A DNA stretch of 37,977 bases, taken from positions 1 to 37,977 of the forward strand of contig CAKZML010000254.1 in the NCBI GenBank assembly GCA_937128475.1, in the 5' to 3' direction. Position numbers and translations under genes: made by a program. The first letter of the stretch is position 1. Each line of letters starts with the position of its first letter. Positions 24,042-27,489 of this stretch are shown here, one piece after another. Below the pieces are notes generated by a model. The model searched no databases. It had not been told where the DNA came from and worked only from the letters and a program-made list of their open reading frames with translations. This stretch comes from an uncultured Chromatiales bacterium (GTDB taxonomy: Bacteria > Pseudomonadota > Gammaproteobacteria > Steroidobacterales > BM003).

Positions 24042-24057
24042 ACACAAGATATTGTGC
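24042..24057. promoter_or_regulatory. NrdR box 1
   Basis: ACACAAGATATTGTGC matches 14 of 16 positions of the NrdR-box pattern ACACWATATATWGTGT. NrdR is the ATP/dATP-sensing repressor of ribonucleotide reductase genes. It lies 315 bp upstream of the nrdJa ATG and right after the DnaA-box-like array. Confidence 0.65.
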
Positions 24058-24205: not shown

Positions 24206-24221
24206 ACACAACATCTTGTGT
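24206..24221. promoter_or_regulatory. NrdR box 2
   Basis: ACACAACATCTTGTGT has perfect 6-bp arms (ACACAA/TTGTGT) and matches 14 of 16 positions of the NrdR-box pattern. It lies at the predicted start of the TTGACA promoter. Box starts are 164 bp apart, unlike the usual closely paired NrdR boxes. Confidence 0.7.
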
Positions 24222-24273: not shown

Positions 24274-24356
24274 TTGCGCTAATAAAAATCGAATTCAGGG
24301 GGGCGTGAGAGTCGTATAAATAGCAGTACATGCATTTCTGGGGGCGTCGGGCTGCA

Positions 24357-26507
24357 ATGAAAATCGCTGAAGAATTAGTAAATACGGGGGTGTCTGACAT
24401 CTCTTTTCAAGCTGCATCACTTGATATCTGGGATAAAAAATATCGCCTCAAGGCGAAAGATGGTCAAAACGTCGACGACACCATTGAGGACACCTATGAG
24501 CGTGTCGCCAGGGCGCTTGCCGATGTGGAAGCACCGGAAAAGCGTGAGGAATGGTATGAGCGTTTCGTTTGGGCGCTGAGCCAGGGAGCTATTCCCGCAG
24601 GCCGCATCATGTCCAACGCCGGGGCCCAGGACCACAAGCCTGCGACCTCCACCATTAACTGCACCGTCTCGGGCACTATCCGGGATTCCATGCATGACAT
24701 CCTGGACAAGGTTCATGAGGCTGGACTGACCTTGAAGGCCGGTTGCGGTATTGGTTACGAGTTTTCCACCCTGCGTCCCAAGGGCGCGTACGTATCCGGC
24801 GCCGGAGCCTATACCTCAGGCCCGCTGTCCTTCATGGATATCTACGACAAGATGTGCTTCACCGTGTCATCGGCCGGTGGTCGCAGAGGCGCCCAGATGG
24901 GCACTTTCGACGTGGGCCATCCAGATGCCATCGAGTTTATTCGCGCCAAGCGCGAGGACGGTCGCCTGCGCCAGTTCAACCTGTCGTTGCTGGTGACCGA
25001 TGGCTTTATGAAGGCTGTCAAAGACGACGCCGACTGGCCCCTGGCCTTTCCGGTGAGTCATGAAGAAGTGGATGAGGATAGTCTGAACCTGGCCGATCCC
25101 AGTTCAGTGATCTGGCGAGAATGGCCCAATCATGACAAGTCTTACGTCATCGATGATGCTGGCCTGGTGGCTTGCAAGGTTTACAAGACCCTGCCTGCCC
25201 GTCGCATCTGGGATGTCATCATGTCCTCGACCTACGATTACGCGGAGCCGGGCTTCGTGCTGATCGACAAGGTCAACGAAATGAACAACAACTGGTGGTG
25301 CGAAAATATCCGTGCCACGAATCCTTGCGGCGAACAGCCGCTGCCTCCCTACGGCTCATGTCTGCTGGGTTCAGTGAACCTGACCCGTTTCGTGGTCAAC
25401 CCGTTCACCGAAGAGGCTTACTTTGACTGGGATGAGTACCGCAAGGTCGTGAAGGTATTCACTCGCATGCTGGACAACGTGGTGGAGATCAACGGTCTGC
25501 CCCTGGGTCGTCAGCGCGACGAGATTAACCGCAAGCGCCGTCATGGCATGGGTTTCCTGGGACTGGGTTCTACCGTCACCATGTTGACCATGAAGTACGG
25601 AAGCGCCGGTTCGGTGGAGTTCACTGAGAAGGTCGCCCGTGAAATGGCGCTGGCTGGTTGGGAAGCTTCCCTGGAACTGTCACGTGAGAAGGGTCCTGCG
25701 CCGATTATGACCGAAGAGTTCACGGTCACCGGCGACATGATGCGCAAGCGTCCGGAAATGAAGGATGACGGCATCCAGGTTGGCGACAAGCTGCCCGGCC
25801 GTTTGCTGCACGCCCGTTACAGTCGTTACATGCAGCGGGTAGCCGAGCAGGCTCCCGAGTTGGTGGCTGAACTGTCCGAGGTGGGCGCGCGCTTCACCCA
25901 TCACAGTTCCATTGCACCGACCGGCACGATTTCCCTGTCACTGGCCAATAACGCCAGTAACGGCATCGAGCCCAGCTTCGCTCATCATTATTTCCGTAAT
26001 GTGATTCGTGAGGGACGCAAGACCAAGGAGAAGGTGGACGTATTTTCCTTCGAGTTGCTTGCCTACCGTGAAATGATTAATGAGCAGGCCTCTTCGGACG
26101 CAGGCACTGACGTTAACAGCCTGCCTGAGTATTTCATTACTGCTGATGAGGTCAATCCGACACAGCATGTGGACATCCAGGCCGCAGCCCAGAAGTGGGT
26201 GGATTCCTCGATTTCCAAGACCGCCAATGTACCCACGGCGTTCCCGTACGAGGACTTCAAGAACATCTATATGTATGCCTACGAACAGGGTCTGAAGGGA
26301 TGCACGACATTCCGTTTCAACCCCGAGGCATTCCAGGGCGTGCTGGTTAAGGCTAACGACCTGAAGAACACGACCTATGTGTTCACCCTGGATGACGGTA
26401 CCGAGCTTAAGCTCAAGGGTGACGAAGAAGTCGAATACGATGGTGAGATCCATACAGCGGCGAATTTGTTTGACGCGATTAAAGAGGGTTACTACGGGAA
26501 GTTCTAG
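24357..26507 (+). CDS. nrdJ: Class II (B12-dependent) ribonucleoside-diphosphate reductase, large part NrdJa
   Basis: Reduces ribonucleotides to deoxyribonucleotides using adenosylcobalamin, with or without oxygen. The 716-aa product has the RNR fold: YERVARALAD in the N-terminal part, the substrate-site region KPATSTINCTVSG, GCGIGYEFSTLRPKGAYVSG, the catalytic NPCGEQPLPPYGSCLLGSVN loop and the second barrel segment HHSSIAPTGTISLSLANNAS. The C-terminal redox cysteines are absent and supplied by NrdJb, as in Pseudomonas. I see no N-terminal ATP cone. The track begins at ATG 24330 without a ribosome site; ATG 24357 is also weakly supported (GGGGGCG upstream), so the start is uncertain. Control sites lie at 24004-24273. 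Confidence 0.95.
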   Translation: MKIAEELVNTGVSDISFQAASLDIWDKKYRLKAKDGQNVDDTIEDTYERVARALADVEAPEKREEWYERFVWALSQGAIPAGRIMSNAGAQDHKPATSTINCTVSGTIRDSMHDILDKVHEAGLTLKAGCGIGYEFSTLRPKGAYVSGAGAYTSGPLSFMDIYDKMCFTVSSAGGRRGAQMGTFDVGHPDAIEFIRAKREDGRLRQFNLSLLVTDGFMKAVKDDADWPLAFPVSHEEVDEDSLNLADPSSVIWREWPNHDKSYVIDDAGLVACKVYKTLPARRIWDVIMSSTYDYAEPGFVLIDKVNEMNNNWWCENIRATNPCGEQPLPPYGSCLLGSVNLTRFVVNPFTEEAYFDWDEYRKVVKVFTRMLDNVVEINGLPLGRQRDEINRKRRHGMGFLGLGSTVTMLTMKYGSAGSVEFTEKVAREMALAGWEASLELSREKGPAPIMTEEFTVTGDMMRKRPEMKDDGIQVGDKLPGRLLHARYSRYMQRVAEQAPELVAELSEVGARFTHHSSIAPTGTISLSLANNASNGIEPSFAHHYFRNVIREGRKTKEKVDVFSFELLAYREMINEQASSDAGTDVNSLPEYFITADEVNPTQHVDIQAAAQKWVDSSISKTANVPTAFPYEDFKNIYMYAYEQGLKGCTTFRFNPEAFQGVLVKANDLKNTTYVFTLDDGTELKLKGDEEVEYDGEIHTAANLFDAIKEGYYGKF

Positions 26508-26553
26508 GAACGAACCCCAGGTAAGCCCCGGAAAGAGTTAGTCAGGAACAGAC

Positions 26554-26727
26554 ATGTCACCGCTGGAAAAAAAATGGAAGAAACGCGCCGCCGAGGTCAC
26601 CTATGCGGCTGATGATTCCACCACCCGTTGGGCAGGTGCGGTAAGCAACCCGCCCGGCGAGGTGTCCGAACCCAAGGCAGCCCGGCCGAAGAAAATCCAG
26701 TCCGGCAGCCTGAAGCGCATACGGTAA
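26554..26727 (+). CDS. 57-aa basic small protein between nrdJa and nrdJb (hypothetical)
   Basis: This ORF is too short for the track. ATG at 26554 follows AGGA by 7 nt (AGGAACAGACATG) and reads through 57 codons to TAA. The product begins MSPLEKKWKKRAAEVTYAAD, contains STTRWAGAVSNPPGE and ends PKKIQSGSLKRIR, so it is strongly basic at both ends with no membrane segment. It lies 46 bp after nrdJa and 66 bp before nrdJb, on the same strand, so all three are probably on one message. I do not recognise a family. In Pseudomonas nrdJa and nrdJb are nearly adjacent, so the insert is notable. It may be a real accessory protein or a chance ORF. Confidence 0.55.
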   Translation: MSPLEKKWKKRAAEVTYAADDSTTRWAGAVSNPPGEVSEPKAARPKKIQSGSLKRIR

Positions 26728-26793
26728 GTACGCCCACGTAGTCACAAACGGGGATGCTTGCTGAAACAGAGCAACGAGAGAGAACATAGAACT

Positions 26794-27489
26794 ATGACAA
26801 TCAAGATCGATCACAAGATCGTCGGGTACAAGGTGGAGAAGCCTGAGGAAGCGGCTCCCAAGGTTGATACCAAGGCGACTTCCACGGACGGCAAAGTCAT
26901 CCGGATGCACGAAAAGCTCGAGCGTCCCGAGATGCTCATCGGTTCAACCTACAAGGTAAAACCCCCGGTAGCTGACCACGCCATGTACGTCACCATTAAC
27001 GATATATTGCTCAATGAGGGTACGCCCCACGAGAATCGTCGTCCCTTCGAGATTTTTATTAACTCGAAAAACCTGGACCACTACCAGTGGATCGTGGCGC
27101 TGACCCGGATTATCTCCGCCGTCTTCCGTAAGGGTGGGGACTCGACCTTCCTGGTGGAAGAGCTCAAGGCCGTGTTCGATCCCCGTGGTGGATACTGGCA
27201 GCCGGGCGGCACGTTCATGCCCTCCATAATTGCTGAACTGGGATACATCATTGAAAAGCACATGATCAGCATTGGCCTGATCAAGGATAATGTGCTGGAC
27301 GAGCACCAGATGAAACTGGTGAATGAAAAGCGGGCCGAATACGAGGCGTCCATGCAGCAAACCGACGCTTTTGCCGACACCCAGTACCCCGAAGGCGCCC
27401 AGTTGTGTGGCAAGTGCTCCACCGCTGCGGTAATCATGCTGGATGGATGCATGACCTGCCTGAGTTGTGGCGACAGCAAGTGCGGCTAG
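26794..27489 (+). CDS. nrdJ: Class II ribonucleotide reductase small part NrdJb (TSCPD domain, C-terminal cysteines)
   Basis: Provides the C-terminal part of the split B12-dependent reductase. The 231-aa protein starts MTIKIDHKIVGYKVEKPEE, has a TSCPD-type domain in the middle (RRPFEIFINSKNLDHYQWI, ALTRIISAVFRKGGD) and ends in a cysteine cluster (LCGKCSTAAVIMLDGCMTCL then SCGDSKCG) that would shuttle electrons to the NrdJa active site. The track start is a TTG 12 codons upstream; ATG at 26794 fits known NrdJb N termini. The residues continue what single-chain NrdJ has after its barrel, so the split is a domain split, not a frameshift. A terminator follows. Confidence 0.93.
   Translation: MTIKIDHKIVGYKVEKPEEAAPKVDTKATSTDGKVIRMHEKLERPEMLIGSTYKVKPPVADHAMYVTINDILLNEGTPHENRRPFEIFINSKNLDHYQWIVALTRIISAVFRKGGDSTFLVEELKAVFDPRGGYWQPGGTFMPSIIAELGYIIEKHMISIGLIKDNVLDEHQMKLVNEKRAEYEASMQQTDAFADTQYPEGAQLCGKCSTAAVIMLDGCMTCLSCGDSKCG

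Follow-up and report, generated by a model that had tools for sequence, protein, structure and literature searches.

A conserved small-protein gene separates nrdJa from nrdJb in a split class II ribonucleotide reductase locus and may encode an accessory factor of the enzyme

The genes for the two halves of split class II ribonucleotide reductase (RNR), nrdJa and nrdJb, are normally adjacent, so what occupies the 286 nt between them here? The window (the whole 37,977-nt stretch of DNA that was analysed) encodes a NrdJ barrel subunit followed, on one strand, by a separate TSCPD/Cys subunit (TIGR02504, PF02867, PF12637), i.e., a split class II enzyme with the same genes, order and strand as P. 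aeruginosa-type nrdJab. We surveyed nrdJa-nrdJb gaps across the order, 135 distinct ones in all, and read the long ones directly. Their median length was 33 nt and 86 of the 135 measured 1-50 nt, in agreement with the initial annotation, which had called the two genes normally adjacent. Short-gap adjacency is usual, not strictly defining, and is replaced in the window by a gap that holds a small open reading frame (sORF). The features of the locus are as follows.

24042-24057, + strand: NrdR-box-like palindrome 5' of nrdJa, two mismatches to ACACWATATATWGTGT
24206-24221, + strand: second NrdR-box-like palindrome 5' of nrdJa, two mismatches, 164 bp from the first
24330-26507, + strand: nrdJa, catalytic half of split class II RNR (TIGR02504 NrdJ_Z, E = 3e-174; PF02867/PF00317)
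26544-26547, + strand: Shine-Dalgarno-like AGGA, read from the sequence, 6 nt 5' of the sORF ATG
26554-26727, + strand: small-protein gene, 57 aa, pI 10.3, family without known match (dN/dS 0.17-0.33; same-slot orthologues; same-design slot ORFs in other families)
26560-26646, + strand: predicted N-terminal helix, residues 3-31, including W8 and the invariant W26 (AlphaFold pLDDT 80/71/61 across the first 30 residues; W26 invariant in 15 aligned members)
26794-27489, + strand: nrdJb, TSCPD and C-terminal cysteine half of the enzyme, 231 aa (PF12637 TSCPD, E = 4e-8)

An internal ATG at 24357 (MKIAEEL...) may be the start of nrdJa instead of 24330. NrdR-box-like matches numbered two in the window, compared with 0.11 expected; typical NrdR box pairs are spaced closer than the 164 bp seen here. 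nrdJb is near-universal across the order. A search of 16 genomes (genera g1, g2 and g52) found the small subunit of class I RNR (PF00268) in none of them, carriers of the sORF included. These lineages therefore probably rely on split NrdJab as their main aerobic RNR, and DNA precursors seem to be made aerobically by this enzyme in these bacteria.

The sORF reads from an ATG at 26554 to a TAA at 26725-26727, on the strand of nrdJa and nrdJb and in the slot between them. Its product lacks Cys, carries a net charge of +7 and is basic at both termini. The initial annotation had described just such an ORF, basic at both ends, with an AGGA, an ATG and a stop and co-directional with its neighbors, and our reading agrees with it throughout. 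In the two genus-mates the AGGA region is either retained as CAGGAACA (G001) or reads GGGAAC (G002). However, 7.7% of shuffled gaps contained an ATG ORF of equal length by chance alone, so that the ORF by itself is weak evidence and independent support was needed.

Such support came from comparison with relatives. Both genus-mates carry the ORF in the same nrdJa-nrdJb gap (3/3 genomes of genus g1), at 84% and about 50% identity and free of indels; a frame lost from relatives that keep the gap, which had been proposed in advance as grounds for rejecting the gene, was therefore not what we found. The initial annotation had also suggested dN/dS analysis, which yielded 0.17, 0.31 and 0.33 for the sORF frame among the g1 genomes. 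In the closest pair, substitutions at codon positions 1, 2 and 3 numbered 2, 6 and 15, and the other two forward frames contained stops and gave dN/dS of 3.7 and 0.78. Amino-acid changes were fewer than a neutral simulation allows (P = 0.0016 for G001 and 0.0008 for G002), and dN/dS was 0.13-0.5 in pairs from the Woeseiaceae genus g52 and 0.29 in one pair from family f5. Since the frame is intact in the genus-mates, dN/dS is low and substitutions favor third positions, these sequence comparisons indicate that the sORF is almost certainly a genuine protein-coding gene. It was previously unannotated, and the case shows that fast-evolving small genes inside central operons can escape annotation. 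Two other candidates were rejected: an antisense ORF (26557-26910, - strand), whose frame is broken in both relatives, and an RNA element in the gap, for which we found no Rfam match, no repeats and no promoter- or terminator-like site on the + strand.

Similarly designed small basic ORFs occupied the nrdJa-nrdJb slot in 19 genomes belonging to four families of the order. Carriers comprised 3/3 genomes of g1, 8/12 of g52 (family f6), seven f5 genomes from three genera (L224, L226, L227, L230, L235 and L236, plus G099 at a contig end next to nrdJa) and a single f3 genome (L161). Of the eight g52 copies, one is interrupted early by an in-frame TAG and another runs off the end of its contig. Across 396 genomes of the order, all profile matches with E < 1e-5 lay in this slot, making the linkage to split RNR by location strong. 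Beyond the order but within the class, 16 of 105 gaps exceeded 150 nt and none contained an ORF recognisable by eye as this design; a class-wide profile search gave no credible match. The gene is also absent from most relatives, where gaps are about 33 nt, and from 4/12 genomes of g52, and on a tree of NrdJa plus NrdJb its presence and absence required at least seven gains or losses. It is therefore dispensable and has been repeatedly lost or gained. In L228 (f5, G139), a sister of the carrier L230, the gene is absent and a short similar stretch, GQKDFWK, is left in the gap; this could be a decayed remnant. The Woeseiaceae copy with the TAG (G267; L121/L255) carries it at codon 5 while the remaining frame is conserved, and sequencing error, a late start or early decay are all possible explanations.

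Whether the four family sets descend from one gene was considered separately. Profile matches across clades (A1, A2 and A8) are partly circular, as those members were already in the alignment, and we relied on slot and design together with independent profile tests. Comparison of the g52 and g1 alignments by hhalign gave E = 0.0043 with a probability of only 8%, the two matching at the same place near the N-terminus. With a g1-only model, g52 member L053 and f5 member L226 ranked behind 11 and 18 of 20,054 decoys, respectively, and with an f5 plus g52 model the three g1 proteins ranked behind 10, 18 and 35 of 20,054. An f5-only model did not separate other clades' members from decoys, and a whole-genome search of the g1 genomes with the g52 model returned nothing at the slot. 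Because slot and design are identical, and given these profile tests, the sequences point to homology across the four families as the probable origin. Convergence, whereby a tolerant gap gave rise more than once to unrelated ORFs that are real genes in their own clades, would explain why cross-clade searches are so weak, with the best members behind 10-35 decoys and several at background, and why the distribution on the NrdJ tree is patchy, with seven changes. However, convergence would also have to produce the same slot, length, feature polarity and Trp position in each family, the shared N-terminal place of the g1 and g52 alignments, and the LEKW...SSSRW...LKR that f5 L226 has in common with g1, and we regard it as doubtful. 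It concerns origin and is compatible with any functional reading.

Members are 48-64 aa long, with pI 9.5-12 (16 members) and net charge +3 to +11. One Trp, around residue 25-32, is invariant in 15 aligned members, while N-terminal basic/aromatic residues and an LKR-like C-terminus are recurrent, not universal. AlphaFold predicted a single helix for the window protein (residues 3-31, pLDDT falling from 80 to 61) followed by a low-confidence tail, and the modeled architecture is thus an N-terminal basic/aromatic helix with a putatively disordered basic tail. Pfam searches with 15 members gave zero matches at E <= 1, nor were there any in NCBIfam, PADLOC or PDB. The sORF protein has no Pfam similarity to TSCPD that would mark it as a fragment of NrdJb. 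Read-through fusion to NrdJb was rejected, as the two share a frame with a single intervening TAA in G000 and G001 and do not in G002 or g52. AlphaFold of the read-through chain showed no packing or docking (pLDDT < 50 over residues 15-124), a weak test in which only two alignment rows covered the sORF.

What, then, might the protein do? Our best reading is an accessory or regulatory protein that evolves fast, is co-translated and can be dispensed with, and we put the probability that it helps to regulate or assemble split class II RNR at about 0.5. All three genomes of the genus carry it and ORFs of the same design fill the slot in g52, f5 and f3, and the pI of 9.5-12 among 16 members contrasts with that of NrdJa (pI 5.2, net charge -25). 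Purifying selection on the frame, the confinement of order-wide matches to the slot, the f5 and f3 starts that lie against or over the nrdJa stop codon (TTGA, TGATG) and the failure to find a class I small subunit in carriers also favor this reading. nrdJa, the sORF and nrdJb would form a three-gene operon read from one presumed message; operon position alone is no proof of physical interaction. In this model the cationic helix would bind acidic NrdJa, plausibly close to the C-terminal extension of NrdJa that serves as the docking place of NrdJb, and so tune NrdJa-NrdJb pairing or re-reduction, as small disordered proteins tune the yeast enzyme. In P. aeruginosa, NrdJb carries out thiol-disulfide exchange and contacts the C-terminal region of NrdJa (PMC4520616), and the extra C-terminal domain of NrdJa may aid NrdJb binding (PMC9669993). 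Against an accessory role, no NrdJa or NrdJb residue significantly tracked presence of the gene after correction for 1766 tests, close relatives repeatedly lack the gene, the read-through model showed no docking on NrdJb, and the P. aeruginosa enzyme works without such a protein (PMC4520616).

The initial annotation had proposed a small partner that bridges NrdJa and NrdJb or regulates them. A conserved gene tied strictly to the slot fits a partner or regulator; a required bridge is not supported. The P. aeruginosa locus differs from this one in having no third co-directional gene between the halves, and since its NrdJa and NrdJb alone make up an active (NrdJa-NrdJb)2 enzyme (PMC4520616), an essential bridge is unlikely. 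The absence of the gene from most relatives and from some g52 genomes, and the unpacked read-through model, also argue against one. Among the closest known parallels are the yeast RNR inhibitors Sml1, Hug1 and Spd1, of which Hug1 is a small protein acting on RNR (PMC4245953). Like them, the sORF product is small and apparently largely disordered (57 aa, low AlphaFold confidence beyond the helix), and action on RNR is proposed here; unlike them, it is bacterial, belongs with a class II rather than a class I enzyme and has no Pfam match to suggest homology, and their binding is proven whereas we infer that of the sORF product. That these ORFs form a previously undescribed, lineage-restricted protein family spread over four families of a single gammaproteobacterial order and dedicated to regulating B12-dependent RNR at the NrdJa-NrdJb interface as a functional counterpart of Sml1/Hug1, is a quite unlikely, more specific proposal. 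A conserved small protein encoded in the operon would be, to our knowledge, the first protein proposed as a partner of a split class II RNR, none being mentioned in the literature searched, and would allow the control of NrdJa-NrdJb pairing to be studied in a simple assay with three proteins.

NrdR, a repressor with a zinc finger and an ATP-cone that is about 150 aa long, resembles the sORF product in possible RNR regulation, and NrdR-like boxes lie upstream of the nrdJa operon here. The sORF product matches neither zinc finger nor ATP-cone in Pfam or NCBIfam, and the window protein has no Cys.

Among the rivals to an accessory role, the strongest is a real small protein with a job unrelated to RNR, e.g., nucleic-acid or membrane binding, that is made alongside DNA precursors. 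Many such binders have a strongly basic, aromatic-containing helix, and no co-varying sites were found in NrdJ; yet a gene with an independent function should occasionally turn up elsewhere, and no match at E < 1e-5 lay outside the slot in the 396 order genomes, so this is unlikely. Less plausible is a translational spacer, whose translation would lead ribosomes on from nrdJa to nrdJb and fix the stoichiometry of NrdJb, with the encoded peptide of little importance. Some f5 and f3 copies have a start that overlaps the nrdJa stop or almost touches it (TTGA, TGATG), a sequence arrangement that suggests coupled translation, and the intergenic gap is otherwise long. However, purifying selection acts on the amino acids, the Trp/basic design recurs across families, and the 16 gaps of more than 150 nt outside the order show no such ORF by eye, which together make a spacer very unlikely. 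A non-coding or chance ORF, which the 7.7% chance rate and an RNA fold z of -2.6 in one sequence would favor, is largely refuted by the intact frame, low dN/dS, third-position bias and closed alternative forward frames of the closest pair, and is scarcely tenable.

A mobile or phage origin was also rejected, as phage, plasmid and PADLOC searches were empty and PHROGs gave at best a non-significant E of 0.37 for one member only. The nrdJa-nrdJb gap of a Steroidobacteraceae-like MAG (L058, 3763-4000) contains an HNH-endonuclease-like remnant (HHVWPFQRF...LCKRCHDAFH), which hints at past visits of mobile endonucleases to this junction.
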